Shown here in pieces: positions 5,698 through 60,969 of a stretch of 64,000 bases of DNA (within the stretch, counting starts at the first letter, position 1; each line of letters opens with the position of its first letter). The DNA is taken from contig CAINFC010000006.1 in assembly GCA_903847975.1 (NCBI GenBank), forward strand, positions 186,001-250,000. The letters run 5' to 3'. The notes beneath the pieces were generated by a model, which saw nothing but the letters and a program-made list of their open reading frames with translations, was not told where the DNA came from and searched no databases. Source of the DNA: an uncultured Acidobacteriota bacterium. Lineage in GTDB: Bacteria; Acidobacteriota; UBA6911; CAINFC01. A program made the position numbers and the translations under genes.

Positions 5698-6870
5698 TCA
5701 GATTTTCTGGAGCCAGGACAGGTGGCTCTGGTAATTGTTCCGGATTTCTTCCATGGAATCTCCTCCGAATTTTTCCAGGAAGGCGTCGGCCAGCACAAAA
5801 GCCAGCATCGCTTCCCCGACCGTTCCGGCGGCGGGTACAACGGACACATCCGAGCGCTCGTAAACCGCGTCCTTCCTGGCTTTGGTTCGGATGTCGACCG
5901 ATGTCAGTGGCTTCAGCAGCGTGGAGATGGGCTTCATAAAGCCCCGAACCTGAACGGGCATGCCGTTGGTGATCCCTCCCTCGAGCCCTCCGCACCGGTT
6001 GGTGCGACGGTAAAACCCCCTGCTGCTCTTGTGGTAATAAATGGCATCATGAACTTCCGAGCCGGGCCGACCGGCATTACGAACGCCATCCCCGATTTCC
6101 ATGGCCTTGACTCCGGGAATGGAGAGGAAAGCCTGGGCGATCCTCCCGTCCAGCTTGCGGTCCCATTGGGTATGAGACCCCAGACCAGCCGGCACGCGAA
6201 AGGCAATCACTTCAAAAATTCCTCCCAGGGTATCCCCGTGCTCCTTGGCTTGGTCGATGGCCTGCATCATCCTTTTTTCCGCGTCCGGATTAAGACACCG
6301 CATGGGAGTGAGGTTACATCGCCGCAGGGCTTTCGGCTCCGGGAGTTTCTGTGCATCGGTTCCTGCTTCCACATTCCCGACTCGAACCGTGTGGCTGAAA
6401 ATGGAAATGTCGAAAGCTTCGAGAAACTGCTTCAGCAATGCGCCTGCCGCGACCCGCGCCGCCGTTTCCCGGGCGCTCGCTCTTTCCAGTATGTTCCGCA
6501 TATCCTGGTGCCGGTATTTGATCATTCCCGCCAGGTCGGCGTGACCCGGTCGCGGCTGGTGGACGGCCCGCTGCGTTTCCCAGGCCTCCACCGGCTGGGA
6601 GTTCATTTCCTGCTGCCAGTTCACCCAGTCACGGTTGTCGATGCGCAGGGCAATCGGACTCCCCAGGGAAAATCCGTGTCGTACCCCGCCGACGATCTGA
6701 GCCTGGTCCGTTTCTATTTTCATGCGATCGCCGCGGCCATAACCCTGCTGACGGCGGCTTAAATCTTCCTGGACCGCATCGATCCGGATCGGGACGCCGG
6801 AGGGCATTCCTTCCAGAATGACCGTAAGGCAAGGTCCGTGCGATTCTCCTGCAGTAATCAGTCGTATCAT
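5698..6870 (-). CDS. aroC: Chorismate synthase
   Basis: Final enzyme of the shikimate pathway. It converts 5-enolpyruvylshikimate 3-phosphate to chorismate with reduced FMN. About 390 residues from the chosen ATG. Family motifs: GESHGP at the N-terminus, RRQQGYGRGDRM, GRPGHADLAGMIKY, the central RASARETAARVAAGAL and GGLEGGITNG. The frame extends to 6951, but I chose the ATG at 6870 (MIRLITAGESHG) because the GGGGGAGA motif lies about 7 bases before it. An in-frame ATG two codons upstream is almost on the ribosome-binding site. It is probably the first gene of the def-fmt-rsmB operon, with a 69-base gap before def. Confidence 0.97.
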   Translation of the reverse strand: MIRLITAGESHGPCLTVILEGMPSGVPIRIDAVQEDLSRRQQGYGRGDRMKIETDQAQIVGGVRHGFSLGSPIALRIDNRDWVNWQQEMNSQPVEAWETQRAVHQPRPGHADLAGMIKYRHQDMRNILERASARETAARVAAGALLKQFLEAFDISIFSHTVRVGNVEAGTDAQKLPEPKALRRCNLTPMRCLNPDAEKRMMQAIDQAKEHGDTLGGIFEVIAFRVPAGLGSHTQWDRKLDGRIAQAFLSIPGVKAMEIGDGVRNAGRPGSEVHDAIYYHKSSRGFYRRTNRCGGLEGGITNGMPVQVRGFMKPISTLLKPLTSVDIRTKARKDAVYERSDVSVVPAAGTVGEAMLAFVLADAFLEKFGGDSMEEIRNNYQSHLSWLQKI

Positions 6871-7006
6871 TTCCATTCTCCCCCAAAATAGTATCAAATT
6901 CCTCCGGGCAAATAAAAGTGGGCTTTCCGGTGGTCCGGACTCGGTCCTCAAGGTAAAATTCTTTCTTCAGGGGTAGTAAATTCGATCCCCGGGACTTCGG
7001 CATTGC

Positions 7007-7035
7007 TTGACGGGGGCCATGGGACACGATAAGAT
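7007..7035 (+). promoter_or_regulatory. Putative sigma-70 promoter of the mla operon
   Basis: TTGACG at 7007-7012 and TAAGAT at 7030-7035 are separated by 17 bases. The -10 ends only 12 bases before the mlaE ATG and no Shine-Dalgarno is visible, so the leader would be very short. Confidence 0.45.
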
Positions 7036-7047
7036 TCAGATACTTGC

Positions 7048-7806
7048 ATGGGATATATATTTAATGTTTTAAAAGAGATCCAGCTTTTCTCGCTGCTTTT
7101 TCTCCGCGCGGTTATCAACGTGTTCCAGAAACCGCGCTACATAAGGGATACCTTTCAGCAGATGGATTCCATCGGGATAGGATCCCTGCCGATTATCTCC
7201 CTCACCGGCTTTTTCACCGGCGCGGTTCTGGCCCTGCAATCCTCGAAAACCCTAAAGTCTTTCGGGGCGGTGAACCTGACCGGCCAGCTGGTTGCCCTTT
7301 CCCTGGTCCGCGAGCTGGGTCCGGTTCTTGCCGCCCTGATGATTGCCGGCCGGATCGGCTCCGGAATTGCCTCCGAACTGGGGTCCATGACCGCCACCGA
7401 GCAGATCAACGCCATGCGCGCCCTGGGAACCGATCCGACCCGAAAGCTGGTAACCCCCCGCATGCTGGCCACGGTCACCATGTTGCCGCTGCTGACGGTA
7501 GTTTGCAATTTCTGGGGGCTGGTCGGAGGATGGCTCGTTTCCCTTTATAAGCTGCGGATCAGCTCCAGCCTTTTCTGGTTGACGTCATTCAGCTCTTTAT
7601 CCTATTCCGATCTGGTTCAGAGCCTGGTTAAACCCTTTTTTTTCGCCTTTATTATCAGCATGATCGGCTGCCACTGCGGCTTGTCAACCACCGGTGGAAC
7701 CCAGGGAGTGGGCCGCTCCACGACAAAAAGCATGGTTCTGGCTTCCATCCTGGTCATTGTGGCCGATTTCTTCCTGAACACCATTATCATTGAATTGACC
7801 CGGTAG
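7048..7806 (+). CDS. mlaE: MlaE-family ABC transporter permease
   Basis: A 252-residue inner-membrane permease of the MlaE/YrbE family, which moves phospholipids between the inner and outer membranes. It shows the family's hydrophobic core, the segment SLVRELGPVLAALMIAGRIG and the motif ASELGSMTATEQINAMRALG, which is diagnostic. It is followed 4 bases later by the MlaF ATPase and then the MlaD MCE protein. No mlaC- or mlaA-like gene is nearby. The ATG lacks a clear ribosome-binding site. Confidence 0.95.
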   Translation: MGYIFNVLKEIQLFSLLFLRAVINVFQKPRYIRDTFQQMDSIGIGSLPIISLTGFFTGAVLALQSSKTLKSFGAVNLTGQLVALSLVRELGPVLAALMIAGRIGSGIASELGSMTATEQINAMRALGTDPTRKLVTPRMLATVTMLPLLTVVCNFWGLVGGWLVSLYKLRISSSLFWLTSFSSLSYSDLVQSLVKPFFFAFIISMIGCHCGLSTTGGTQGVGRSTTKSMVLASILVIVADFFLNTIIIELTR

Positions 7807-7810
7807 AAGC

Positions 7811-8602
7811 GTGATTCGCCTTCAGTCCGTTTACAAGTCCTTTCAGGGCAAGCCGGTCCTCAAGGGGATCGACCTGCACGTGAGGGAAGGAGAAACCAAG
7901 ATCATTCTCGGAGGAAGCGGGTCCGGCAAATCCACGATTCTGAAATTAATCCTGGGCCTGGATAAGCCGGATTCAGGGTCGATTCAGGTGGAAGGGGAGG
8001 AAATTACCAGCCTGAGCGAGGAGGAAATGATCTCTGTCCGAACGAAAATGGGAGTTGTTTTCCAGGAGGGAGCCCTGTTCGATTCCCTGACGGTCGGCGA
8101 AAACACCGGCTACCGCCTTCGCGAAGCAAAAGCCAGCCGGGAGCCGGAGATTCAGAAGACGGTTCGACGGCTTCTCGGGTTCGTAGGTCTGGAGGATGCC
8201 ATTGACAAGATGCCGGCAGAGCTGTCCGGCGGAATGAGGAGACGAGCGGCCATTGCCCGGGCCCTGGCCGGTAGCCCCAAAATCATGCTTTATGACGAAG
8301 CTACAGCGGGGCTGGATCCGATCACCTCCCGGGTGATCTGCGAGCTGATGATCAAACTCCGGGACCTTGAGAATGTGAGTTCCATTTTTGTCACCCACCA
8401 CCTGGAAGCGGCGTTTCTGCTTGCCAGCCAGTATGCCCGCCGATCCCCCGATGGAAACGTCCTGTTTTTCAAGGAAGCAGACGACCTGTGCCTGGTCAAC
8501 ACCAAATTCCTGGTTATGGAAGACGGAAAAATCGTTGCCGAGGGAACGGATGAAGAGATCCGCCAATGCGAAAACGAGTACGTAAAGGAATTGATTTATT
8601 AG
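7811..8602 (+). CDS. mlaF: MlaF-type ABC transporter ATPase
   Basis: A 263-residue cytoplasmic ATPase that energises the MlaE permease. Walker A GGSGSGKST is at residues 34-42, the Q-loop Gln at 85, the signature LSGGMRRR at 138-145, Walker B IMLYDEATAGLD from 158, and the switch His in FVTHH near 196. The start is GTG, 4 bases after the mlaE stop. The length and the GMRRR form of the signature fit the MlaF/Ttg2A family. Confidence 0.95.
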   Translation: MIRLQSVYKSFQGKPVLKGIDLHVREGETKIILGGSGSGKSTILKLILGLDKPDSGSIQVEGEEITSLSEEEMISVRTKMGVVFQEGALFDSLTVGENTGYRLREAKASREPEIQKTVRRLLGFVGLEDAIDKMPAELSGGMRRRAAIARALAGSPKIMLYDEATAGLDPITSRVICELMIKLRDLENVSSIFVTHHLEAAFLLASQYARRSPDGNVLFFKEADDLCLVNTKFLVMEDGKIVAEGTDEEIRQCENEYVKELIY

Positions 8603-47286: not shown

Positions 47287-48723
47287 ATGAGCAACAACCC
47301 CACCCGCTATTCCGCCGAATCCGGAACCCAACAGTACCGCATGGGGTATGTCTGGCTTACGGCGCTGGTTGCCGCCATGGGCGGTCTGCTCTTCGGCTAC
47401 GACTGGGTGGTGATCGGCGGGGCCAAGCCATTTCTCGAGAAGTACTTCGTGCTGACCACCGAGCAGCAGGTCGGATGGGCCAACAGCTGTGCTCTGCTGG
47501 GCTGCCTGCTTGGTTCCATCCTCACCGGAGGACTCAGTGACCGCTACGGCCGCAAGAAACTGCTGATTTTTTCCGCTTTCCTGTTCATGGTTTCCTCCCT
47601 TCTGACCGGATGGGCATCCACGTTTCCCGAATTCGTTACCTGGAGAATCGCCGGCGGCATCGCGATAGGCATGGCCTCCAATCTTTCCCCCCTGTACATT
47701 GCGGAAATCGCCCCGACGCCGTATCGGGGACGGCTGGTGGCCATGAACCAGCTGACCATTGTGATCGGCATCATTGCCGCACAGGTCGTCAACTGGCAAC
47801 TGGCCGAGCCGGTACCCGCCGGAGCTTCCGCGGAATTCATCCGCCTCAGCTGGAACGGCCAATATGCCTGGCGCTGGATGTTCACCGCGGTGGCCGTGCC
47901 CTCACTGGCCTTTTTCGTCTCCGCCATGTTTATTCCGGAAAGCCCTCGCTGGCTGGTAAAAAGAGGTCGGGACGAACGGGCCCACTCCGTTTTATCCCGT
48001 CTGGGAGGAAGGTCCTATGCGGATGGCAAAATCCGGGAGATTCAAGCCAACCTGGAGGCGGAGCAAACGACGCGTACCGCCTGGAAAGAGCTTTGGGAGC
48101 CGCGCATGTCGCGCCGCCTGCTCATCGGAGTGACGCTGGCCGTCCTCCAGCAGTGGAGCGGGATCAACGTCATTTTCAACTATGCCGAGGAGATTTATCG
48201 CTCCGCCGGATACGGTTTAAGCGACATCCTGTTCAACATTGTGATCACCGGGGCGATTAATTTTGTGTTTACCCTGGTGGCCATCGCCGGCGTGGACCGC
48301 CTGGGTCGCCGGCTGCTGATGATTTGGGGATGTGCCGGAATTGCCCTATCCCATCTTCTCATTGGCGTGGCCTATCTTCTCGGCTGGAAAGGCATCAGCA
48401 TTCTGACCCTGACCCTTTGCGCCCTGGGCTGCTACGGAATGTCCCTGGCGCCGATCACCTGGGTTCTCATCTCGGAAATTTTCCCGAACCGGATTCGGGG
48501 AACTGCCATTTCCATCGCCGTATCCGCCCTGTGGATCGCATGCTTCCTGCTCACCTTTACTTTCCCCATGCTGAACGGAGCTCTGGGAACGGCAAAAACG
48601 TTCTGGCTGTATTCCCTGATTTGCGCCGCCGGTTGTTTCTTCGTTTATTACGCCGTGCCGGAAACCAAAGACAGGTCTCTGGAAGAAATCGAAGGGGAGC
48701 TGGTCCGGGGACAGAATTCCTGA
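47287..48723 (+). CDS. Sugar porter (MFS) transporter
   Basis: A 478-residue, 12-helix member of the sugar-porter family. Marks: GGLLFGYDWVVIGG near residue 35, the loop motif SDRYGRKKLL, PESPRWLVKRGR after helix 6, GVDRLGRRLLMI and the C-terminal PETKDRSLEEIE. It probably imports a hexose or pentose with protons. AAAAGGA lies upstream of the ATG. A second MFS gene follows 32 bases later, so the two are probably one transcript. Confidence 0.95.
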   Translation: MSNNPTRYSAESGTQQYRMGYVWLTALVAAMGGLLFGYDWVVIGGAKPFLEKYFVLTTEQQVGWANSCALLGCLLGSILTGGLSDRYGRKKLLIFSAFLFMVSSLLTGWASTFPEFVTWRIAGGIAIGMASNLSPLYIAEIAPTPYRGRLVAMNQLTIVIGIIAAQVVNWQLAEPVPAGASAEFIRLSWNGQYAWRWMFTAVAVPSLAFFVSAMFIPESPRWLVKRGRDERAHSVLSRLGGRSYADGKIREIQANLEAEQTTRTAWKELWEPRMSRRLLIGVTLAVLQQWSGINVIFNYAEEIYRSAGYGLSDILFNIVITGAINFVFTLVAIAGVDRLGRRLLMIWGCAGIALSHLLIGVAYLLGWKGISILTLTLCALGCYGMSLAPITWVLISEIFPNRIRGTAISIAVSALWIACFLLTFTFPMLNGALGTAKTFWLYSLICAAGCFFVYYAVPETKDRSLEEIEGELVRGQNS

Positions 48724-48755
48724 AGCAGGCCGACCGGCCTGTCGGAATAGCACAC

Positions 48756-50009
48756 ATGAAAAGGTACCGGTTTCCTGTCGCCTTCCTCTGCGCCACTGCC
48801 TCCGCCGGCTACCTGAGCCGGGTCAACGTATCGATCGTCGCCCCGCTGCTGATTTCCCGTTTCGGATTCACCGAGGTGGAAATCGGCAGTCTGTTCAGTG
48901 CCTTTCTTGCCGGTTATGCCATGTTCCAGGCCCTGGGCGGCTGGATTGCCGACCGGCATGGCCCGCCCAGAACGCTGATGGCCTCCTCTTTCCTTTGGAC
49001 GGTGCTGACCCTTCTGTTTCTTTCCATCGGCTGGATGTCGGTAGCCTCGACCTGGGCCTTGACGCTGGGAATGGTATTGCGATTTCTTCTGGGAATCGCC
49101 CAGGCCCCCTTGTTTCCTGCCTCGGCGGCCGCAGTGTCCGGCTGGGTTCCGCCCCACATGCAGGCACGGTGCAATGCGGTGGTTCTGGCTGGAGTCAGCA
49201 TCGGATCGGCCGCCGCTCCGATGCTGATCTCCCCGGTGATGACCCGCTTCGGCTGGCAGGCGGGCATGCTCATCTCCATCCTTCCGGCATGGATCGTTTT
49301 CCTGGTCTGGAGAAAAACCGCCCCATCCTGGGATCCGGTCCTCCGCCGGACGGACCGGCCGGAACAGCAGACCCCGGCCCCTGCGGCCTCCTTCCTGCGC
49401 TCCGCTTCCTTCTGGATGCTCACCTTCAGTTACAGCCTGCAGGGCTACGTGGGGTACATCTTTGTTTTCTGGTTTTACCTCTACCTGGTACGAGTCAGGC
49501 ATTTCAGCCTGCTGGAAGGAGCCTTTTTCAGCAGCCTGCCCTGGGTGCTGTCCATGATTTCCATTCCCCTGGGAGGTTGGCTTTCCGACCTGTTGATCCA
49601 TACCCGTCTGGGAAGGCAGTGGGGGCGACGCGCCGTTCCGGTGTTCGGCCTGGCAGGGGCGGGCATCACGCTGGCGCTGGGGGCGGGAACCGGCAGCCCC
49701 TATGCCGCGGCTTTCTACCTGGCACTGTCCACATCCCTGGTTCTTTGCGTGGAGGGCCCTTTCTGGGCAGCGGTCACGGAAATCGGCCGGGCTCATCCCG
49801 GGGCCGGGGGCGGGATCATGAACACCGGGTGTAACCTGGGTGGCTTCCTTTCTCCTCTGCTGACACCCTGGCTGGCGGAGAGGATCGGCTGGGAGGGAGC
49901 GCTTTACCTGGCTGCGGTTTTATCCTTGATTGCGGCTGCGGCCTGGTGCCGGATATGGCTCCCGGAAGCTAAGCCAGGTTGCGATTCTGATACGCCTTGC
50001 GGGACTTGA
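48756..50009 (+). CDS. MFS transporter (anion:cation symporter-like)
   Basis: A 417-residue, 12-helix transporter. The first helix reads SAGYLSRVNVSIVAPLLI, and IADRHGPPRTLM is the loop 2-3 motif. It resembles ACS-family hexuronate/organic-anion porters (ExuT-like), which would suit the nearby uronate isomerase, but the substrate is a guess. The ATG is at 48756; the open frame upstream is a shadow of the sugar-porter gene. Its 3' end overlaps the convergent radical SAM gene by 41 bases. Confidence 0.9.
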   Translation: MKRYRFPVAFLCATASAGYLSRVNVSIVAPLLISRFGFTEVEIGSLFSAFLAGYAMFQALGGWIADRHGPPRTLMASSFLWTVLTLLFLSIGWMSVASTWALTLGMVLRFLLGIAQAPLFPASAAAVSGWVPPHMQARCNAVVLAGVSIGSAAAPMLISPVMTRFGWQAGMLISILPAWIVFLVWRKTAPSWDPVLRRTDRPEQQTPAPAASFLRSASFWMLTFSYSLQGYVGYIFVFWFYLYLVRVRHFSLLEGAFFSSLPWVLSMISIPLGGWLSDLLIHTRLGRQWGRRAVPVFGLAGAGITLALGAGTGSPYAAAFYLALSTSLVLCVEGPFWAAVTEIGRAHPGAGGGIMNTGCNLGGFLSPLLTPWLAERIGWEGALYLAAVLSLIAAAAWCRIWLPEAKPGCDSDTPCGT

Positions 50010-50997
50010 AGCCGAAATGCGCTCCGACGCTCTCCGCAAAAAGCTGACGGAAAGTCTTGTCCAGATACGAGCGGATGGAAACGTAGCACTCGTCGCATTT
50101 GTTCTGGCGGGTAAATTCCCGGATCATCCGGTCCTGCTGATCGAGAGGGAATCGTATGAACTGCATGGAGCAGGGCTGCAGCATGCCGTCGGCCGTAACC
50201 ACCAGGAACCTCTGGCCGGACATACAGCCGGGCGTGCCTTTATTCGCGAAATAATCGTAGGTGGCATCCAGAGTCGCCAGGCTGTTGACGATCCAGTGGG
50301 TGTGGTTCATGCGGTGTTTGATCTGATCCAGCTGCTTTTTCAGGAGCTTCAGATCGTCCGGAGCTCCTGGAAAAAGCTTTTTGTTTCCCGTACGCCTCGA
50401 GGAATAAGCGCTGTAGCTGATATTTACCCCCCATTGAACCGCTTTATCCGCACACTCGTTGAGGTAGGGCAGATTCTCCTTGGTGATGCAGACGTTGAGA
50501 ACGATATCGTCGTATCCCAGCTTTCCCAGCCGGGGCATCAGCTCACTGAGCCGGTCGTAAAGCCCGGGCAGGCCGCGGAACTTGTCGTGGCGATCATCGG
50601 GGAAGTCCAGGCTGACGGAAAACTGATTGACGCCAGCCTCGCGCAGCGCCAAGTATTTCTCCTCGGTCATGTGCGACCAGTTGGAGACCAGAATCAGATA
50701 AGGCAGGCCGGAAGGCCGCTTGATGGTGCGGATGATGTCCAGGATATCGTCGCGCATCAGCGGCTCCCCGCCGGAAACCTGGACCACCGCGGGATGCAGC
50801 ACGCGCATGTAGCGGTCGTAATCGCGGGCTTTCAACTGCCTGCTTTCGTCCCGCGGCCCGCCGTGATCGCAATGCCGACAGAAGCAGGTGCAGCTGTCGG
50901 TTACTTCAAACGAGACCACCAGGGGTCGTTTTTGAATCCAGTTCAAAGTGGACCGGAGAATGACTCCGATCGATTCCTGCAGAGGCAATCTTCTCAT
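49969..50997 (-). CDS. Radical SAM protein with C-terminal Cys-rich domain
   Basis: A 342-residue radical SAM enzyme. The [4Fe-4S]/SAM motif is CTCFCRHC (Cys36, Cys40, Cys43). The SAM-binding GGEPLM follows, and the C-terminal part has cysteines in GCMSGQ, QPCSMQF and CDECY, resembling a SPASM/twitch auxiliary cluster. Such proteins often modify peptides or small metabolites; no partner peptide is evident. GGGAAA about 5 bases upstream is the ribosome-binding site, directly below a terminator-like hairpin. Promoter TTGAAA-17-TATAAT is at 51117-51089. It is divergent from the AAA gene. Confidence 0.9.
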   Translation of the reverse strand: MRRLPLQESIGVILRSTLNWIQKRPLVVSFEVTDSCTCFCRHCDHGGPRDESRQLKARDYDRYMRVLHPAVVQVSGGEPLMRDDILDIIRTIKRPSGLPYLILVSNWSHMTEEKYLALREAGVNQFSVSLDFPDDRHDKFRGLPGLYDRLSELMPRLGKLGYDDIVLNVCITKENLPYLNECADKAVQWGVNISYSAYSSRRTGNKKLFPGAPDDLKLLKKQLDQIKHRMNHTHWIVNSLATLDATYDYFANKGTPGCMSGQRFLVVTADGMLQPCSMQFIRFPLDQQDRMIREFTRQNKCDECYVSIRSYLDKTFRQLFAESVGAHFGFKSRKAYQNRNLA

Positions 50998-51169: not shown

Positions 51170-52963
51170 ATGGTAAAAATGGATTCTATTATGCAATCAT
51201 CACCTCAGGAAAAAGCGGCCCGGCGGATACCCGCCTGGGCGGAAAACCTCCGGAACCAGTTCCTGGCGGACGAATGCAGCCAGTTCCTGATTCACGGCAA
51301 CGTGTACGACCTCTTTCCTTTCCGGCAGGAATACCTGGGTCTCAGGGACTTTCTGCAGAAAGGGCTGCTGGCGGAAAAGTGGGTCCTGTTCTACAACCGC
51401 AGCGAAGGCCTGGTGGTATCGGATCCCGCAGGTACCGTTCAGGAACCGGCATGGCTGCTCGGCCTGGCCTCTTCCTGCGGAAGCCTTCTGGAAACGGAGA
51501 GCGGAGCGCGCTCGGTGGCCGCGGATCCGGATCGGGTGCTTCCCCTGCTGGACCGGGTTTTGCAGACCGCGCGAGGCTCCTCCCGGAATTACGCTTTCGT
51601 TCTGGACTATGCCGAAACGATTCTGCCGGAGACCTCGATGACCTTTCTTTCGGACGGAGAGCGAAAGAACCTGATCACCGTTCACCGCTGGGCCGACGAT
51701 TTGGATCTGCGCCTTTCCAACGGAGTGGTGCTGCTGATCGCGGAAACTCTGGCGGATGTGAACGCCCGTATACGCAGCCATCCCAGCATCAATCTGATCG
51801 AAATTCCTTTCCCCGACCAAGAGGAGCGCCAGGCGTTCATTGAATCCCTGATCGCCCTTCTGGGCTCCGGGCTCACCTTGGCCCTTGCCCCGCAAAAGCT
51901 GGCGGAAGTGACCAGCGGGCTCAGTCTGACTCATATCGAAAAAATGATCCGCTCCGCCTGGAAGCAGGGCACACAGCTGGACTACGAAACCGTTGTCAGG
52001 CGCAAAAACAGCGTAATCGAAAAAGAGAGCGGTGGATTGCTGGAGGTGGTATACCCGAAGCATAGCGTGGATGATTGCGCCGGCCATACGCTGGCCAAAA
52101 AGAGAATTCGCAGAGAGATCGCCAAAATCAAGTCTGAGCAGCGAAGCAAGTGCCCGGCCGGAATCATCCTGGTCGGAGAAATGGGAACCGGAAAAACCTA
52201 CCTCACCTTCGCCATCGCCTTCGAATTCGGGCTGCCGGTGGTAATCATCAAAAACCTGCTCGGAAGCCTGGTCGGGCTTTCCGACAGCAATCAGGAAAAA
52301 ATGCTCTCCATGCTGGAAGCCATGGCGCCCATTATCGTGATCGTGGACGAAGGGGACGTTTTCTTCGGCAAGAGAAAAAGCGAAGGGGACAGCGGCGTGC
52401 AGAGCCGGCAGTTCGGGCGTTACGCCACCTTCATGAGCCAGGGGTCCCATCGCGGTCGCGTTTTCTGGATCATCAATTCCGCTCACCCCGACAACCTGGC
52501 CGACGATTTCAAACGGCCGGGTCGCTGCGACGTGATTATCCCGCTCTTCCCCATGCTATCCCAGGAGGATCAGAAAGAAACCCTGGTCAAGGTTTTCGCG
52601 CAAAGGGGGATCGATACGACATCCTTCGACTGGGAAAAGAGCCTGGCCCTGCTGGCCGAAACCGGCAGCCAGGGGTGGCCGGTGAGGGAGTATACCGCTT
52701 CGGATCTCTCCAAAATCGCGGTCCTGGCCGAAGACCTTGCCGAAGAGCGGGGCGCCGCGGCCGTTCAGTCGGAGGATCTGGCCACCGCTTTGCAGCAGTA
52801 CTCTCCGGGATCCATTCAACTGGTAAAGAAATACCAGCGGCTGCTGGCCATCACCGAATGCACCGCCGCGGAAACGGTTCCCGAACCCTACCGGTCGCTG
52901 CCCCTGGAGGAGGTGTACCGGCAGATACGCGAGCTGAAAATACAGCTCGGAGATCGTATCTGA
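51170..52963 (+). CDS. AAA+ ATPase of the PspA-ABC cluster
   Basis: A 597-residue ATPase. The N-terminal half (to about 290) looks like a degenerate AAA module beginning FLIHGNVYDLF, without a Walker A motif. The second module has Walker A GEMGTGKT at 336-343, Walker B IIVIVDE with Asp393/Glu394 and an RPGRCDVII arginine-finger region near 450. This architecture resembles Ycf46/SpoVK- or Vps4-like remodelling ATPases. The C-terminus ends in an amphipathic helix (EEVYRQIRELKIQL). The next genes encode a coiled-coil protein and PspA, so a role in remodelling those proteins is plausible. The start is uncertain (ATG at 51170, 51179 or 51191). Confidence 0.85.
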   Translation: MVKMDSIMQSSPQEKAARRIPAWAENLRNQFLADECSQFLIHGNVYDLFPFRQEYLGLRDFLQKGLLAEKWVLFYNRSEGLVVSDPAGTVQEPAWLLGLASSCGSLLETESGARSVAADPDRVLPLLDRVLQTARGSSRNYAFVLDYAETILPETSMTFLSDGERKNLITVHRWADDLDLRLSNGVVLLIAETLADVNARIRSHPSINLIEIPFPDQEERQAFIESLIALLGSGLTLALAPQKLAEVTSGLSLTHIEKMIRSAWKQGTQLDYETVVRRKNSVIEKESGGLLEVVYPKHSVDDCAGHTLAKKRIRREIAKIKSEQRSKCPAGIILVGEMGTGKTYLTFAIAFEFGLPVVIIKNLLGSLVGLSDSNQEKMLSMLEAMAPIIVIVDEGDVFFGKRKSEGDSGVQSRQFGRYATFMSQGSHRGRVFWIINSAHPDNLADDFKRPGRCDVIIPLFPMLSQEDQKETLVKVFAQRGIDTTSFDWEKSLALLAETGSQGWPVREYTASDLSKIAVLAEDLAEERGAAAVQSEDLATALQQYSPGSIQLVKKYQRLLAITECTAAETVPEPYRSLPLEEVYRQIRELKIQLGDRI

Positions 52964-53028: not shown

Positions 53029-53661
53029 ATGGAACAGAAACCCAAAGGAAAGTCGTGGATCAGCAACCTGTTATTTGAGGACGAAGGACGTGCATCGGAA
53101 AGCCCGGCGGAATCCTCGGACACTTTCGAACCGGAACTGCCTGTTTCCGAACCCGTCATCGCTCCTGTCGCCGCCCGGCCGGAAGCCATCGGCGGGGGGA
53201 AAGCTTCGGACGGTGCGCTTTTAAATCTGAAGGAGATTTACCGCAGCGCCGGAATCGCGGAAAACCCTTTTGCCACCCCGGAGCAGGTTATGGAGCTGCA
53301 GGCCACCTTTTCCGACCTTCCGGTGGAAATGCAGAAGCAGAAGGTACTGAAAACTCTTGGCTCCTTCAAGGTGGACGTCCAGGCGATTGTGGATAATACC
53401 CGGGCCAAGACTTCCGCCCTGGGAAGCTACCTCCAGGGAATTCAGACCGACGCCCAGAACACCATCGAGGCCAGCAACCAGACCATTGCCCAGCTGCAGG
53501 AGCAGATCGACGCCTGCCGGTCCCGGATCACCGAGGCGCAGTCGCTGCTCGACCAGACCCAAGCGCATTGCGGCCGTGAAATCAGCCGCCTGAAAGAGGT
53601 GCTGGATTTTCTCGGGGCTACCGCTTCTTTGGACGCCCCGCCGGACAGGCGGATAAAATAA
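53029..53661 (+). CDS. Coiled-coil protein, function unknown
   Basis: A 210-residue protein I do not recognise. The first 60 residues are acidic and Pro/Ser-rich (low complexity). The segment LLNLKEIYRSAGI and the VEMQKQKVLKTL region look like a small helical domain. Residues about 120-195 are a coiled coil with heptad-type Leu/Gln/Glu spacing (IAQLQEQIDACRSRITEAQS). There is no membrane helix or signal. The ATG at 53029 gives MEQKPKGKSWIS; the frame extends to 52975. It sits 65 bases after the AAA gene and 40 bases before pspA, and may be a PspA partner or adaptor. Confidence 0.75.
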   Translation: MEQKPKGKSWISNLLFEDEGRASESPAESSDTFEPELPVSEPVIAPVAARPEAIGGGKASDGALLNLKEIYRSAGIAENPFATPEQVMELQATFSDLPVEMQKQKVLKTLGSFKVDVQAIVDNTRAKTSALGSYLQGIQTDAQNTIEASNQTIAQLQEQIDACRSRITEAQSLLDQTQAHCGREISRLKEVLDFLGATASLDAPPDRRIK

Positions 53662-53701: not shown

Positions 53702-54424
53702 ATGGGACTGTTCAGCCGAATATGGAATATCATCAAGGGGATTTTATTCGAGGGCGTGGAAAAAGCCGAAGTGAAAAATGCCGGCGTGGTCTTCGATCAG
53801 GCCATTCGGGCCAAGATCGATCGCTACCACCGTCTGCGCGATGCCGTCGGAGGCCTGGAAGCCAATCGCATCCGGATGGAAACCCGCTTGAACGAGCTGA
53901 AGCGAACCCTGGAAGAAGTCGAATCCGACCTCCGGGCTGCCATCGCCAACGAGAACGAGACGCTCGGCCCCATTCTCCTGCAAAAGAAGCAGGAGCTGGA
54001 AACCCAGATCCCACCGCTGGAGCGGGAGCTCGAACAGGCGGTGGCGGAGCTGAAAGACCATATGCAGAACCTGACCATGGCCCAGGCGGACATCCAGAGG
54101 CTGCGGCAGGAGAAAGAGCGCGCCCTGGCCACGGCGGAGACCGATCTGCTGCGCAAGGAAATTGAAGATGAAATTGCCCACCTGTCGGTGGACAGCTCGG
54201 AAATGGCGGCCCTGGATAACGTCCGCCAGAGGCTTGACAAGTTGCACGGGGAGGCCCAGGTCGCCAAGAAGCTGGGAGAAACCGATATCAACCGGCAGCT
54301 GCAGTCTCTGCGTGCCGAGTCCCGTGCCACCAATGCCAAGTCGGACTTCAAAAAGCTGGTGGAAATGTCCAAAGCTCAGGCCGCCGGCGGTAAAGTCGAG
54401 AAGACTCTGGGGCCGAAGGAATAA
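53702..54424 (+). CDS. pspA: PspA/IM30 (ESCRT-III superfamily) protein
   Basis: A 240-residue coiled-coil protein of the PspA/Vipp1 family. The N-terminus MGLFSRIWNIIKGIL is the amphipathic membrane-binding helix typical of the family. The rest is almost all charged helix with heptad repeats (KRTLEEVESDLRAA, AQADIQRLRQEKERAL). PspA-type proteins assemble on membranes and repair or remodel them under envelope stress. AGGAGGAAAGCG before the ATG is a strong ribosome-binding site. No PspB/C/F regulators are nearby; instead it sits between a coiled-coil gene and an ABC transporter module. Confidence 0.88.
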   Translation: MGLFSRIWNIIKGILFEGVEKAEVKNAGVVFDQAIRAKIDRYHRLRDAVGGLEANRIRMETRLNELKRTLEEVESDLRAAIANENETLGPILLQKKQELETQIPPLERELEQAVAELKDHMQNLTMAQADIQRLRQEKERALATAETDLLRKEIEDEIAHLSVDSSEMAALDNVRQRLDKLHGEAQVAKKLGETDINRQLQSLRAESRATNAKSDFKKLVEMSKAQAAGGKVEKTLGPKE

Positions 54425-54487: not shown

Positions 54488-56059
54488 ATGGCACGTTTGA
54501 AAACCGGACCGAAAATTGTTCTTAGCCTGCTTCTGCTGGCCGTTGTCGGCTATTCTGTTTATCGCTATTGGCCCAAAATTCAGGAGATGACCGGCCTGTC
54601 CAAGCCTGGTTCTTCATCCGTTTCCGAATCGAAAAGCGGCTCTGCCGGCGAAAGCGCGTCGCGTTCGTCGGGTTCCAGCAATCAGGTGCGGGTGAGGGTC
54701 AACATCTGGGTCGGGTGTGTTCCCGGCCTGGTGGCCAACGGCGGCCTGGACACCCAGCCCGGATCCATTTTCGATCAGAAGGGACTCAAGGTCGAATTCA
54801 AAATCATTGACGACTGGACGGAAGGCGCAGCGGCACTGGCCACGGGCAACGTGGACGTGATGCTGACCACGGTGGACGTCTTTGCCAAGGATTACTTCCA
54901 GTTTTCCGAGAAGAAGTTCCCCACCCAGACGGTTCTGATGGTGGACTGGTCCCGGGGTGCGGATGGGATTATTGCCCGGCAGGGAATCAATTCCATTGAG
55001 GATCTGGCCGGCAAAGTCGTGGCTTTTCCGGAATTCACACCTTCGCACTTCCTGCTGCACAATGCCCTGAAGCAGTCGGGTCTGGCCAGCGCCCAGATAT
55101 CGGAGATCCTGAGCCGGGCGGTGCACACCAAAGATGGCATCGACAGTGCCACCATTTTCGGCCAGCAGAAAGTGGACGCGGCCGTCGCCTGGGATCCGGA
55201 CATGAGCGATGCGGTCGGCAAGCGTCCCGGTTCGAAGAAGATTTTCGACACCAAGGTGGCCAACAAGCTGATTGCCGACATTCTCATCGTCGGCGAGAAG
55301 TACATTCAGGAGCAGAGCCCGACGCTGTCGAAATTCCTGGACGGATGGCTGCAGGGAGTCGAGTTCATCAAGCAGAATCCGCAGCGCGCCTACTCCCTGA
55401 TCGGAGCGGTGAAGGATTTTAATATCCCCGCCGATCTGGCCAAAATCATGCTGGAAGGGGTCAAACTGGCGGACTATTCCGAAAACTCCCAGTTTTTTGC
55501 CCTGAAGGGCGGCCTATCCGACTATGCCAACATTTTCAACATGGCCCAGGACACCTGGAGGGATCTGCGGGTGATCAAGCGGTCCACCGATCCTCTGAAA
55601 ACCGTGGAACCACGCTTCGTAAAGAACCTGGAAGCCAAGTACCCGCAGGCAGCTCCGGAAGCGGCACCGACTTACACGGCCCCGGCCAAGTCGGCGACTC
55701 CCATCATGACCCAGCAGAAGAGCATCTATTTCGAGACCAACTCCGCCCAGATGAGCCCGGACTCCCGGGTCATTGTGGATGAAATCGGCAGCTTTATGCG
55801 GGCTTACGAGAACACCGTGGTGGACATCGAAGGAAACACCGATTCCACCGGCAACCGGGAATACAACATGAACCTGTCCCGTGAGCGGGCGGAGAGCGTG
55901 AAAAGCTACCTGACGGGCAAGTACTCCTTTCCTGCTTCGCGGATACGGACTTTCGGCAACGGGCCCGACAAGCCGTTGGAAAACAACAATACGCCCGAAG
56001 GGCGCGAGAAGAACCGTCGCACCGACATCAAGGTGTATCCGAACCCCGCCTCCAAGTAG
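54488..56059 (+). CDS. Membrane-anchored ABC substrate-binding protein fused to an OmpA-like domain
   Basis: A 523-residue protein. An N-terminal transmembrane helix (about 9-27) is followed by a Ser-rich linker. A NitT/TauT-type (NMT1/SsuA-like) substrate-binding domain spans about 65-400, with GNVDVMLTTVDVFA, VAFPEFTPSHFLLHNAL and DAAVAWDPDMSDAV. A Pro/Ala linker leads to a C-terminal OmpA-like domain (about 420-515) carrying the peptidoglycan-contacting residues in GNTDSTGNREY and LSRERAESV. The binding domain would thus be tied both to the inner membrane and to the cell wall. AAGGAGAG precedes the ATG. A strong hairpin follows the stop before the permease gene. Confidence 0.88.
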   Translation: MARLKTGPKIVLSLLLLAVVGYSVYRYWPKIQEMTGLSKPGSSSVSESKSGSAGESASRSSGSSNQVRVRVNIWVGCVPGLVANGGLDTQPGSIFDQKGLKVEFKIIDDWTEGAAALATGNVDVMLTTVDVFAKDYFQFSEKKFPTQTVLMVDWSRGADGIIARQGINSIEDLAGKVVAFPEFTPSHFLLHNALKQSGLASAQISEILSRAVHTKDGIDSATIFGQQKVDAAVAWDPDMSDAVGKRPGSKKIFDTKVANKLIADILIVGEKYIQEQSPTLSKFLDGWLQGVEFIKQNPQRAYSLIGAVKDFNIPADLAKIMLEGVKLADYSENSQFFALKGGLSDYANIFNMAQDTWRDLRVIKRSTDPLKTVEPRFVKNLEAKYPQAAPEAAPTYTAPAKSATPIMTQQKSIYFETNSAQMSPDSRVIVDEIGSFMRAYENTVVDIEGNTDSTGNREYNMNLSRERAESVKSYLTGKYSFPASRIRTFGNGPDKPLENNNTPEGREKNRRTDIKVYPNPASK

Positions 56060-56151: not shown

Positions 56152-56952
56152 ATGCTGATTCAGCGACGAAAGCTTTCTTTATTTGCCAGGGTCGGCCTGG
56201 GAGTGATCGCCTGGCTCCTTTTCCTGGGCCTATGGTACCTGAGCGCCATCTTCGAGTGGCTACCGCCCATGTCCCTCCCCCATCCCGTCGATGTCGTCAA
56301 GGCATTTTTCCGCCTGTGGATGGAAAACGACCTGATCGGCAATGTTGCCATCAGCTGGTGGCGGATTGCACAGGCCTTTTTCTGGTCTACGCTGATCGCT
56401 TTGCCGCTCGGAATAATCATGGCGTTCTCAGAGCCGGTCTTTCACTTTGTGAATCCCATTGCCGCTCCCATGCGCTCCATGCCGGTCAGCGCCTTTCTTC
56501 CGGCCATTATCGCCGTGTTTGGCCTGGATGAACAGATGAAGATCGCTTTTCTATTTATCGGGATGTTCTTCTATCTTCTCGCGATTGTCACCGAGGAAGC
56601 CAACCGGGTTCGGAAAGAGCTGATCGAAACCGCCCTTACCCTGGGCGCCAAAAAGCTCCAGGTGCTCTGGCTGGTCTTTTGTGCCAGCTTTCCTCCGATC
56701 TACGGTTCCTTCCGGATCCTCTACGATATCGGCTGGACCTATGTCATCCTGGCCGAAGTGGTAAATTCCCGCAAAGGAATCGGCTACATGATCGAGTCCG
56801 CCCGGAAGTTCCTGGACTTCGATCGCGTTTATGCCGGCATCATTGCCATCGGACTGGCTGCTTTTCTCTTTCGCTGGCTGCTGAAAATGTCGGAGCACTG
56901 GCTCTTCCCGTGGCAGAAAGTGGCCACCCGTGCGGCCGGAAAGGAGGAGTAG
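56152..56952 (+). CDS. ABC transporter permease (NitT/TauT/SsuC family)
   Basis: A 266-residue membrane protein with about six helices. The family EAA-type loop reads EEANRVRKELIETALTLGAKK, and GIGYMIESARKF is a common SsuC/TauC motif. It would form the pore for the preceding OmpA-fused binding protein. TAAGGA lies before the ATG. The ATPase gene follows after one base. The substrate is unknown; sulfonate-, nitrate- or pyrimidine-like ligands are typical of the family. Confidence 0.93.
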   Translation: MLIQRRKLSLFARVGLGVIAWLLFLGLWYLSAIFEWLPPMSLPHPVDVVKAFFRLWMENDLIGNVAISWWRIAQAFFWSTLIALPLGIIMAFSEPVFHFVNPIAAPMRSMPVSAFLPAIIAVFGLDEQMKIAFLFIGMFFYLLAIVTEEANRVRKELIETALTLGAKKLQVLWLVFCASFPPIYGSFRILYDIGWTYVILAEVVNSRKGIGYMIESARKFLDFDRVYAGIIAIGLAAFLFRWLLKMSEHWLFPWQKVATRAAGKEE

Positions 56953-56953
56953 C

Positions 56954-57781
56954 ATGAGGACGGAAAGGAAAGTCAAACTCCAGGTCAGCAATCTTTGCAA
57001 ATCGTTCGTTTCGCCGGAAGGGAAAAGGATCGAAGCGGTTCGCGACGTCTCCTTCGAAATCGAAGACCTTTTTAAAAATGAACGGGACATCGGCGAGTTC
57101 CGGGTTTTTCTGGGGCCCTCCGGCTGCGGAAAGTCCACCGTGCTGCGCATGATCGCCGGACTGGAATTTCCGGACAAGGGGTCCATTCTCCTGCAGGGCC
57201 AGCCGGTTTCCGGACCGGGCCGCGACCGGGGGATGGTTTTCCAGAAATACGCCTCCTTCGATTGGATGACCGTCCGGAAAAATATCGAGTACGGCATGAA
57301 AATCAATGGAGTGGACGAGAAAACAAGGGAAGCTGTGGCCCGCAAGCTCATACAGGATGTGGGGCTTTCGGGGTTTGAAAACTCCTACCCGCAGCACCTG
57401 TCCGGGGGAATGCAGCAGCGGGTGGCGATTGCCAGAACCCTTGCCATCAACCCGGAGCTGGTTCTAATGGACGAGCCCTTCGGCGCACTGGATGCCCAGA
57501 CCCGCGGGGAGATGCAGCTTCTGCTGACCGACATCTGGGAAAAGAATGCCAGTACGATCCTTTTCGTTACCCACGATGTGGAAGAGGCGGTCTTTTTAGC
57601 CGACCGGATCTACATAATGACGTCTCGCCCGGGTACAATTCTGGAGGAGCACGAGGTGCCCTTCGAGAGGCCCCGCAGCATTGCTCTCAAGGAGAACCAC
57701 TCTTTTCACGAGTTGCAGAATACGATTCTTGACCGGCTGCGCAAAGCATCGGGGCGGGGTCAGGTGCGCGTTGGAATTTGA
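56954..57781 (+). CDS. ABC transporter ATPase (NitT/TauT/SsuB family)
   Basis: A 275-residue ATPase with Walker A GPSGCGKS at 54-61, a Q-loop near MVFQKYASF, the signature LSGGMQQRVAIARTL, Walker B LVLMDEPFGALD and switch His in FVTHDVEEA. Compared with SsuB/TauB there is a short charged insert (EDLFKNERDIGEF) before Walker A. The ATG at 56954 follows AAGGAGGAG. It is the energising subunit for the preceding permease. The next gene starts within its last bases. Confidence 0.94.
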   Translation: MRTERKVKLQVSNLCKSFVSPEGKRIEAVRDVSFEIEDLFKNERDIGEFRVFLGPSGCGKSTVLRMIAGLEFPDKGSILLQGQPVSGPGRDRGMVFQKYASFDWMTVRKNIEYGMKINGVDEKTREAVARKLIQDVGLSGFENSYPQHLSGGMQQRVAIARTLAINPELVLMDEPFGALDAQTRGEMQLLLTDIWEKNASTILFVTHDVEEAVFLADRIYIMTSRPGTILEEHEVPFERPRSIALKENHSFHELQNTILDRLRKASGRGQVRVGI

Positions 57782-58631
57782 AGCTAAGGTGGCGAAAGAA
57801 ACGGAAAAAAAAGAAACCAGCTATGCCCGGGAAGCCTTCCTGAACGGGTACAACCTGGCCTTCCTCGGCGCCGCGGCAGCCTTAGGGCTGTTGAATTGGG
57901 ACTTCGTGCCTCTGCTTTCGGGAGTAATTCTGCCGCTGGAAGCGCTTTACATGCTCTTCGTCCCGGACCAGGGATGGTTTCGCCGCTGGGTCGATCTGCA
58001 GCAGGGCATCGAAAGCCAGAAGGAGGAGGCCCGGAGGAAAAGCGAGCTTCTGGCCAGCTTTTCCCCGGAAGTCCGGGACCGCTATGTGCAGCTGGTGCGC
58101 CTGAAGGAGGAAATCGCCAACTACTGCAAGGGCACGGAAGCGTCCTGTCCGCTCGATTCCGAGGATCTCGTCAAGCTGGACAGCTATCTGGATTCTTTCG
58201 TATATTTCATCCAGTTCCGGGCCCAGTGCCTGGCCACCAAGCTTTCCATCGACACCGCGGAAATTCAAAAGCGGATTAAGCGTCTGGAGCGCGAAGTGGA
58301 ATCGGACCGTAATAACCCGGACCGTCAGCAGGTAAACGCCCTTCGGGCGGAAAACATCAAGATGAATCAGGAAATCCTGGACCGCGTAGAGCGGCTGGAC
58401 AGCTACATGATGATGGTCGACGCCCAGACCGAAGCGATCGAAAATACCCTGAAGCTGATTCAGGTCAGGCTGGCTACTTCCAACTTCCAGGCCGAAGGGG
58501 AGGTGGAACTGGTATCCTCGGATATCAACCATCTGCTGGATGCCATCCATAGCACCGAAAAGAACCTGGAGGAGGCCAGCAAAGACATGGTCAAGATCAA
58601 GAAGCTCACCCGACTTTCCATCACGCCCTAA
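57771..58631 (+). CDS. Two-TM coiled-coil protein of the ABC/PspA cluster
   Basis: A 286-residue protein I do not recognise as a named family. Two hydrophobic helices (about 20-60) lie near the N-terminus (LAFLGAAAALGLLNW and LLSGVILPLEALYMLFV). The remainder is a charged helical region with heptad-like spacing (EIQKRIKRLEREVESDR, HSTEKNLEEASKDM). The likely start is TTG at 57771, overlapping the ATPase gene end by 11 bases; a GTG at 57789 is an alternative. Tight overlap with the ABC ATPase suggests it is part of the same system, perhaps a membrane partner of PspA. Confidence 0.75.
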   Translation: MEFEAKVAKETEKKETSYAREAFLNGYNLAFLGAAAALGLLNWDFVPLLSGVILPLEALYMLFVPDQGWFRRWVDLQQGIESQKEEARRKSELLASFSPEVRDRYVQLVRLKEEIANYCKGTEASCPLDSEDLVKLDSYLDSFVYFIQFRAQCLATKLSIDTAEIQKRIKRLEREVESDRNNPDRQQVNALRAENIKMNQEILDRVERLDSYMMMVDAQTEAIENTLKLIQVRLATSNFQAEGEVELVSSDINHLLDAIHSTEKNLEEASKDMVKIKKLTRLSITP

Positions 58632-58643
58632 CGGAAGAGGACA

Positions 58644-59516
58644 ATGAATCGACGGACTTTTCTTGGATCGGTGATGGCAGTGCGGGAGATGCTCCCATGG
58701 GACTCCGCCCGGCTGGGAATTGCCTGTTCGCTGGGGGATTCCGAGGATACGGCCAGGAAAGCTCTGAGCGAGGCCCGGCAGGCCGGCTTCACGCGGGCGC
58801 AGCTGCAAATCCCCTGGACCAGAGTCGATGACTCCTTCCTGCGAAAGGTACCCGGCTGGCTGCGACAGGAAGGGCTTCAGGCAGACGTCCTGGGCGCATA
58901 TGTAAACTGCTGCCTCCCGGCAAATGTGTGGATGGATTGCCGGGAGCAGGATTTTGACCGGGCCATCGAAACCGCCGGATTGATCGGTGCCCGCAGGCTG
59001 GTCGCCTGGACAGGCGGTTACGGTGCGGATTTGATGAAAGCCGACCCCAGAAACCATGACCCTGCCGCCGAAGATGCGGTCTGCCGCTTTGTGGAAATCC
59101 GGACGCGGAAAATGGAAAGTTCCGGCCTTCAATTGGCTCTCGAGACCTATATCACCCTGGTCTGCCCCGATGCGGTGTCTCTTTCCCGGCTCCTCAAGCG
59201 GCTGCCAAACCGGGTCGGAGCGGTTCTGGATCCTCCGAACCTCACTCCCATCGCCCTTTTTCCGCAGAGGGATAAGGTGCTCAAGGATATGTTTCGCCTG
59301 CTGGCCGGCCGAATCCAGCTGGTCCACCTCAAGGACTTCCGACTGGCGCCCGGCGGTGCCTCCTATCTGCTCCCCGGACCTATGGAAGGAGATCTGAACT
59401 ACCGGCTTTTTCTGGACCGTATCCGGCAGCTCCCTTCCGATATTCCGGTCATCGCCGAGCACCTTTCGTCCCGCCAGTTTGCGAATGCCCGGCAGCGGCT
59501 GCTGGCCTCTTTTTAG
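58644..59516 (+). CDS. Sugar phosphate isomerase/epimerase-like TIM-barrel protein
   Basis: A 290-residue protein of the xylose isomerase-like TIM-barrel superfamily. NRRTFLGSVMA at the N-terminus resembles a Tat motif but with little hydrophobic sequence. Barrel features include GLQLALETYI (Glu), GAVLDPPNL (Asp) and QLVHLKDFR (His, Asp), a metal-site pattern of this superfamily. The exact reaction is unknown. GAAGAGGACA lies before the ATG. It starts 12 bases after the cluster's last gene and 46 bases before uxaC. Confidence 0.85.
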   Translation: MNRRTFLGSVMAVREMLPWDSARLGIACSLGDSEDTARKALSEARQAGFTRAQLQIPWTRVDDSFLRKVPGWLRQEGLQADVLGAYVNCCLPANVWMDCREQDFDRAIETAGLIGARRLVAWTGGYGADLMKADPRNHDPAAEDAVCRFVEIRTRKMESSGLQLALETYITLVCPDAVSLSRLLKRLPNRVGAVLDPPNLTPIALFPQRDKVLKDMFRLLAGRIQLVHLKDFRLAPGGASYLLPGPMEGDLNYRLFLDRIRQLPSDIPVIAEHLSSRQFANARQRLLASF

Positions 59517-59562: not shown

Positions 59563-60969
59563 ATGCTTAATCCAAATCGTTATTTCCACCCCGAGCCGGG
59601 CACTCGGCAAATTGCCCGTGAACTTTATGAAATTGCCGCACAGTTCCCGCTGGTCTGCCCCCACGGCCATGTCGATCCGCGGATTCTGGCGGAAAACAGT
59701 CCCTTCCCCGACCCTTCGGAGCTGCTGATCATCCCCGATCACTACGTCTTCCGGATGCTCTATTCCCAGGGAGTCTCACTGGAAAGCCTCGGCATCCCGC
59801 GAAAAGACGGCGGATGGACCGAGGCCGACCGGCGAAAAATCTGGCAGATTTTTGCCGACCATTATTACCTGTTCCGGGGGACGCCCAGCTGGTGCTGGCT
59901 CCGCCAGGAATTTGCGGATGTCTTCGAAATCGAGGAGAGGCTCGACAGCGGGAACGCCATGCGGCTTTACGATCGGATCGCCGCCAAGCTGGCCGAGCCG
60001 GAATTCCGTCCCCGGGCTCTTTTTGAGCGCTTCCGCATCCAGGTTCTCTGCACCACGGACGCAGCCACGGATGACCTCGCCCATCATCGCAAAATAAGGG
60101 AATCCGGCTGGGGAGGTGATGTCCGGCCCACTTTTCGCCCGGACATCGTAATGACCCTGCTCCACCCCTCCTGGAGAGAGAGCATCGGGCAGATGGAAAA
60201 GCAGACCGGCATTTCCATCGGCGGTTACCGGGCCTATATTCAGGCTCTGGAAAGGCGCCGTGAGTTTTTCAAAACCATGGGCTGCACCTGCACAGACCAT
60301 GCCGTCCTGGAGCCCTACACGGCGGAACTGAGTACGCAAAAGGCGGAAGAAATTTTTATCCGGGCCCTTGGCGGCCACGCCACCGTGGAAGACGACCGCC
60401 TTTTTACCGCCCATATGCTGATGGAAATGGCGCGGATGAGCGTGGCGGATGGTCTGGTCATGCAGCTGCACCCCGGCTCTTTTCGGAATCACAACCAGTC
60501 CGTATTTGACCGGTTTGGCCCGGACAAGGGCTGCGATATCCCGGTGAGCACCGAATACACCCGGAATCTCCGCGCCCTTCTGAACAAGTACGGCAACGAA
60601 AGCCGGTTTCGGCTGGTCCTGTTTACCCTGGACGAATCGAGCTATTCACGGGAGCTGGCGCCCCTCGCGGGGCATTATCCTGCTCTGCGCCTGGGGCCTG
60701 CCTGGTGGTTCCACGACAGCCTGGAAGGGATGATGCGCTTCCGGAAAATGGTCACCGAGACGGCCGGCATTTACAACACGGTAGGATTCAATGACGACAC
60801 CCGGGCCTTCCTTTCCATACCGGCGCGGCACGACCTCTCCCGCCGGGTGGATTCGAACTTTCTGGCGGAACAGGTAGCCACGCATGTCATCGAGAAAGAG
60901 GAAGCGGAGGAGATGATCCGCGACCTTTCCTACCGCCTGGTACGCAAGACGTACGGATTCGACCGGTAG
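59563..60969 (+). CDS. uxaC: Glucuronate/galacturonate isomerase
   Basis: A 468-residue uronate isomerase that converts D-glucuronate to fructuronate or D-galacturonate to tagaturonate in uronic acid catabolism. Motifs: CPHGHVDPR (metal His pair), the segment CTTDAATDDLAHH and GFNDDTRAFLSIPARHD (catalytic Asp and Arg region). The length is typical. The ATG at 59563 (MLNPNRYFHPEPG) fits family N-termini; the frame extends to 59479. It is downstream of the sugar isomerase and near sugar transporters. A hairpin follows at 61011-61042. Confidence 0.95.
   Translation: MLNPNRYFHPEPGTRQIARELYEIAAQFPLVCPHGHVDPRILAENSPFPDPSELLIIPDHYVFRMLYSQGVSLESLGIPRKDGGWTEADRRKIWQIFADHYYLFRGTPSWCWLRQEFADVFEIEERLDSGNAMRLYDRIAAKLAEPEFRPRALFERFRIQVLCTTDAATDDLAHHRKIRESGWGGDVRPTFRPDIVMTLLHPSWRESIGQMEKQTGISIGGYRAYIQALERRREFFKTMGCTCTDHAVLEPYTAELSTQKAEEIFIRALGGHATVEDDRLFTAHMLMEMARMSVADGLVMQLHPGSFRNHNQSVFDRFGPDKGCDIPVSTEYTRNLRALLNKYGNESRFRLVLFTLDESSYSRELAPLAGHYPALRLGPAWWFHDSLEGMMRFRKMVTETAGIYNTVGFNDDTRAFLSIPARHDLSRRVDSNFLAEQVATHVIEKEEAEEMIRDLSYRLVRKTYGFDR

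Follow-up and report, generated by a model that had tools for sequence, protein, structure and literature searches.

A single open reading frame from an uncultured Acidobacteriota bacterium joins a putative membrane anchor, a NitT/TauT-type substrate-binding domain and an OmpA-like domain, and lies in a set of seven genes that also encodes an ABC permease, an ABC ATPase, a PspA protein, an AAA+ ATPase and two further proteins designated CC1 and CC2. Judging from sequence and structure prediction, the fusion protein is probably a wall-fixed binding subunit of an importer, coupled to PspA-based membrane maintenance in a PSP-type cassette. This reading starts from what was established computationally: which domains the protein has and how they are predicted to fold, the invariance of its contact residues, and the conservation of the gene set. 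Coordinates are those of the window, the 64,000-nucleotide stretch of DNA that was analyzed (Table 1).

Table 1. Features of the fusion gene and its cassette in the window
Feature	Coordinates	Strand	Basis and remarks
Two-part AAA+ ATPase	51170..52963	+	First cluster gene here
CC1, coiled-coil protein	53029..53661	+	Family that immediately precedes PspA in most close relatives
PspA/IM30 (ESCRT-III-like) protein	53702..54424	+	Pfam; alignment matches solved Vipp1/PspA
Binding protein-OmpA fusion	54488..56059	+	523 aa; parts from Pfam, AlphaFold2, VIA-align 2
Putative transmembrane anchor, residues 6-35	54503..54592	+	Hydropathy and predicted helix; no Cys nearby
OmpA-like domain, residues 407-518	55706..56041	+	Pfam, fold match, Asp452 and Arg467 invariant in 59/59
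ABC permease, TauC/SsuC type (BPD_transp_1)	56152..56952	+	Pfam, NCBIfam
ABC ATPase, SaoA/TauB/nitrate type	56954..57781	+	Pfam, NCBIfam
CC2, all-helical protein	57771..58631	+	TTG start overlaps the ABC ATPase stop; no Pfam family

Architecture and predicted fold of the fusion protein

The fusion frame is open and begins with an ATG preceded by AAGGAG. The encoded protein is laid out as an N-terminal helix (residues ~6-35), a flexible linker (38-58), a NitT/TauT binding domain (~65-385) and an OmpA-like domain (~407-518). Pfam assigned residues 95-301 to NMT1 (PF09084; E 1.2e-12, 48.7 bits against a gathering score of 20.5) and residues 414-510 to OmpA (PF00691; E 1.1e-20, 74.2 bits against a gathering score of 27.2). 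In NCBIfam the best partial matches, none of which reached its cut-off, placed the middle part with SsuA and taurine binding proteins and the C-terminus with OmpA proteins of the YiaD, Pal and MotB types.

The structure was predicted with AlphaFold2 from 59 sequences. Mean pLDDT was 91.6 and pTM 0.85, and both folds were modeled with high confidence. Values of pLDDT under 50 were confined to residues 1-4 and to the linker at 38-58, which connects the N-terminal helix with the binding domain. Comparison with solved structures using VIA-align 2 gave TauA as the best match for the binding domain (residues 65-378 against 6ssy_B: Z 27.7, rmsd 3.0, 287 aligned), with SsuA at Z 25.4, in keeping with a two-lobed binding-protein fold. 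Residues 407-518 superposed on the peptidoglycan-binding domain of TagL (5m38: Z 18.1, rmsd 1.2, 112 aligned), and a Foldseek search with the model agreed with both the TauA/SsuA and the peptidoglycan-binding domain matches. The first-pass annotation had described one frame joining an anchor, a NitT/TauT domain and an OmpA-like domain with its Asp and Arg contacts, and had looked to structure prediction for the OmpA-like fold. Pfam, the model and the 59-sequence alignment bear out this description, and the fold did form in the model. An assembly artefact or chance fusion was ruled out, since full-length relatives occur in many species.

Conservation was assessed in an alignment of 58 of the 81 complete fusion ORFs, retained after a redundancy filter, together with the window protein. 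Twenty of these 59 fusions are merely 24-31% identical to the window protein. Residues D452, L463, S464, R467, A468 and N509-R510-R511 of the OmpA domain are nevertheless invariant in 59/59, and from work on OmpA domains we take D452 and R467 to be the peptidoglycan (diaminopimelate) contacts. The binding domain is likewise invariant in all 59 at W74, G76, T128, D130, D153, W154, S155, G157, D159, P185, W235, P237 and D264. Because these binding-domain residues persist even at 24-31% identity, the alignment suggests a working ligand site shared by the fusions.

Such conservation argues against an alternative in which the fusion is a signalling device, its wall-fixed domain reporting ligand or wall-membrane spacing while the permease and ATPase serve as a transducer that controls a PspA and AAA+ remodeller, with little or no import. 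We give this reading a real but clearly minor chance. FtsEX-like ABC proteins act as transducers and provide a comparison for it, and NrtC and CmpC, structures of which were among the fold matches, have a binding-protein-like regulatory domain. It also draws some support from two divergent relatives (L131 and L132) that keep the OmpA contacts and have lost several of the binding-domain residues. The binding-domain set is thus not universal.

At the N-terminus of the window protein, a 19-residue segment has a mean hydropathy of 1.69 and is flanked by basic residues. The corresponding value was at least 1.6 in 42 of the 59 fusions and 1.25-1.6 in the other 17. A cysteine, at any position in the N-terminal region, was present in seven of the 59, and the N-terminus of one distant relative (L116) resembles a cleavable signal peptide more than an anchor. 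A lipoprotein anchor was ruled out for the window protein because its N-terminal region has no Cys. Sequence and model together make a membrane anchor likely here, and as a prediction they lend good support to the earlier proposal that the binding domain is held between the inner membrane and the wall. In the distant subfamily of relatives, the linker from membrane helix to binding domain carries a strongly conserved stretch with the consensus EAPDTxGVTTVKEYKY (alignment columns ~77-100), which is absent from the window protein.

The seven-gene cassette in the window and in relatives

In the window the genes follow one another on one strand with close spacing, in the order AAA+, CC1, PspA, fusion, permease, ABC ATPase and CC2. 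The AAA+ gene, first here, is last in most close relatives. Its C-terminal domain is closest among solved structures to CDC48/p97-type AAA domains (E down to 1e-55), and its Walker A, Walker B and arginine residues are invariant in 33 aligned proteins. The Pfam AAA match covers the C-terminal half alone. The N-terminal half matches, by profile, only the lid of the CDC48 AAA domain (E 3.2e-7) and looks in sequence like a degenerate AAA domain. The Pfam scan reported no MIT domain for this protein.

CC1 of the window scored 108 bits against the profile of the family whose genes precede PspA. In CC2, a hydrophobic N-terminal region (helices 27-41 and 43-66) leads into coiled coils. No consistent Pfam family was found for either family. 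The 52 CC2 members gave no Snf7/PspA match in Pfam, just scattered weak matches, and the CC2 model had no PDB match in Foldseek at E <= 0.001. Aligned to the cassette PspA, CC2 reached an hhalign probability of 0.6%; CC1 showed weak coiled-coil similarity to PspA (probability 23%). These comparisons gave CC2 no demonstrable ESCRT-III kinship, though a remote one may exist.

The permease, with a motif-intact ATPase beside the binding protein, completes the gene set of a type I ABC importer whose transport is itself predicted. Walker A and the signature were found in 66/67 ABC ATPases and Walker B in 67/67. By patterns of our own, the H-loop was matched in 50/67 ATPases and the permease motif in 56/72 permeases. 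That the ATPases and most permeases keep their transport motifs is a second point against the signalling reading. The complete ABC set adjoining the fusion would also suit an ordinary importer, in which the OmpA domain does no more than enrich the binding protein locally, and PspA and the AAA+ ATPase provide general envelope upkeep with no mechanistic coupling. In favour of this, one relative (L130) encodes an additional, free binding protein (5812-6831) next to the fusion in the same cluster. This reading is nonetheless doubtful, since the association with PspA, CC2 and AAA recurs across several phyla named in deposited titles, beyond mere neighbourhood, in counts that ignore shared ancestry.

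In PADLOC, the OmpA domain gave a match to ZorB and the AAA domain one to IetA, which could point to an anti-phage or defence cassette. These matches span single common domains only, and no partner of either system is present among the seven genes; in particular, no ZorA-like protein was found among them, and the ZorB match is limited to the OmpA domain. A defence system was rejected on these grounds as highly improbable.

Downstream of the cassette, a gene for a sugar-isomerase-like TIM-barrel protein (58644-59516) is closely followed by a glucuronate isomerase gene (59563-60969, + strand; 543.5 bits against a cut-off of 387). Upstream, two successive MFS transporters, a sugar porter and one of galactonate/phosphate type (47287-50009, + strand), are adjoined by an oppositely oriented radical SAM gene (49969-50997).

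Relatives were collected by a scan of a genome collection, from which the best 80 of 360 encoded relatives were kept. The groups named in the depositors' titles, mostly of metagenome bins, include Acidobacteria/Terriglobia/Bryobacterales, Methylomirabilota, Latescibacterota, Planctomycetota, Armatimonadota, Elusimicrobia and Myxococcales. Loci were counted where at least 6 kb of flank was available on each side, which gave 24 close loci (from L038-L097) and six distant loci (from L098-L117); L121 and L122 were omitted as presumed duplicates of L102 and L086. PspA, permease, ABC ATPase and CC1 accompany the fusion in 24/24 close loci, CC2 and AAA in 21/24, and all seven genes are present in 21/24. 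None of the six distant loci has all seven; the permease, the ATPase and CC2 were each found in 5/6, PspA and AAA in 4/6 and CC1 in 1/6. Relatives from the same class with at least 6 kb of flank have all seven genes in two of three cases. At two distant loci (L098 and L099) the fusion is accompanied by CC2, and the permease, the ATPase and PspA are all missing from the vicinity. In two other loci (L107 and L091) the fusion is the sole one of the seven genes; flanks at these four were 1.8-9 kb.

The first-pass annotation had judged the arrangement better suited to sensing than to free import. This preference, which took no account of the neighbouring transporter genes, was not borne out: a cognate permease and a motif-intact ATPase lie directly downstream of the fusion and recur beside it in all 24 close loci counted, which weakens a sensing-only reading, as does the invariance of the binding-domain residues. 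The constant company of PspA and the frequent presence of AAA and CC2 in the same loci speak in turn for signalling.

CC2 was further traced in a phylum sample of 297 genomes. It was present in 60, and the fusion, at a threshold of E <= 1e-60 that misses divergent fusions such as L131 and L132, was present in 28, all of them within the 60. Ten CC2 regions from the 60 CC2-carrying genomes were read. Three (L126, L127, L129) are two-gene PspA-CC2 pairs without a transporter, and one (L133) is a CC1-CC2 pair. L131 and L132 have the order fusion, permease, ATPase, CC2, CC1, with PspA and AAA absent, and the remaining four (L128, L130, L134, L135) come from fusion-carrying genomes. The gene combinations vary among these ten regions, and the modules therefore recombine, with CC2 as the common link, in counts that take no account of shared ancestry. 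Since the PspA-CC2 pairs lack a transporter, the latter may be an addition to a PspA module; the occurrence of CC2 and PspA together in its absence keeps sensing a live rival.

Some additional features of the relatives were noted. Fourteen loci, including L058, L065, L068, L070, L074, L076, L082 and L088, have a conserved gene of ~153-164 aa that immediately precedes CC1 in the opposite orientation. On visual inspection its product resembles a helix-turn-helix protein and could regulate the cassette. A small protein adjoins the fusion in members of the distant subfamily (L011, L013, L014, L101, L107); that of L107 matches von Willebrand A domains, and those of the other four cluster with it by sequence. 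At L117, two fusion-type proteins (including 6412-8193) flank PspA. Loss of the permease in class relatives L011-L015, where the loci span 3-4.4 kb, was considered and rejected, as the longer stretches L118 and L119 have the permease-side genes across the AAA gene. In the vicinity of L119 there are also efflux genes (AcrB, HlyD, OEP) and a TetR gene, which were considered unrelated neighbours.

Proposed function of the cassette

The favoured reading, a wall-fixed importer subunit coupled to PspA-based maintenance, would work as follows. The fusion would serve as the binding subunit of an ABC importer of the NitT/TauT class and would be fixed at both ends, by its helix in the inner membrane and by its OmpA-type domain on the peptidoglycan, a topology and wall attachment predicted from the domains. 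It would act with its own permease and ATPase, presumably in the uptake of a small anion or zwitterion. The AAA+ ATPase would most likely remodel PspA polymers, joined by the two coiled-coil partners. Most likely, the transporter complex would be held at points of membrane-wall register, and transport would be coupled there to PspA-based membrane maintenance. The presence of PspA and the AAA+ ATPase appears to tie the complex to envelope maintenance, and a role connected with envelope status is plausible from the gene content.

A more elaborate version may be imagined as a mechano-chemical checkpoint. Held fast at both the membrane and the wall, the binding domain would reach the permease only at the right spacing, and the ATPase cycle would report ligand and spacing through CC2, acting as the membrane receptor of PspA, to a PspA/AAA+ remodeller resembling ESCRT-III/Vps4. 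CC2 does also pair with PspA alone; the full scheme is speculative, and we consider it rather improbable. If the working proposed for the favoured reading is correct, uptake, peptidoglycan anchoring and ESCRT-III-like remodelling would be linked in one gene set in several bacterial groups. The cassette would then offer a concrete system for how an AAA+ ATPase recruits and recycles bacterial PspA. CC2, found both in the cassette and in the PspA-CC2 pairs, is a candidate membrane partner of PspA.

Comparison with known systems

The literature search returned one relevant paper (Ravi et al. 2024, mSystems, PMC11237479) and no experimental study, with thin coverage of subscription journals. The paragraph of that paper devoted to the operon describes a PBPB-OmpA protein (example OGG56892.1) in a PspA / AAA+ / ABC operon and suggests, as a computational prediction, wall binding and solute transport. 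The architecture and operon are therefore already published in outline. That operon and the window share PspA, the AAA+ ATPase, the ABC ATPase, the permease and the PBPB-OmpA protein, which in the window are on the same strand and closely spaced. The published two-AAA protein has an inactive N-terminal copy, which the degenerate N-terminal half in the window fits. The same source treats PspA as an ESCRT-III relative and describes a Snf7 homologue with a TM segment, whereas CC2 in the window is a TM coiled coil with no PspA/Snf7 match. CC1, part of the window cassette, is unmentioned in its section on the operon. The additions made here are modest: the exact layout, two unnamed partner families (CC1 and CC2), the pairing of CC2 with PspA where no transporter is present, and the invariance of residues at the wall contact and in the binding domain.

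Like archaeo-eukaryotic ESCRT-III/Vps4, the cassette places an ESCRT-III relative, PspA, and an AAA+ ATPase in one predicted operon. Unlike Vps4, the cassette ATPase is CDC48-like, with a degenerate N-terminal AAA half and no MIT domain in the Pfam scan. TauA and SsuA, from TauABC and SsuABC, share the binding-domain fold and the class of permease and ATPase with the fusion system. Identity over the fold alignment is 16-18%, and the solved TauA and SsuA lack an OmpA domain. Binding proteins of this type normally have no inner-membrane anchor. An N-terminal membrane helix with a C-terminal OmpA-like domain is the arrangement of MotB/PomB, TagL/TssL and ZorB, to which the OmpA domain of the fusion matches by sequence or fold. 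The fusion differs from these proteins in having a binding-protein domain in between, and its partners are an ABC transporter and PspA in place of a motor, a T6SS or Zorya.
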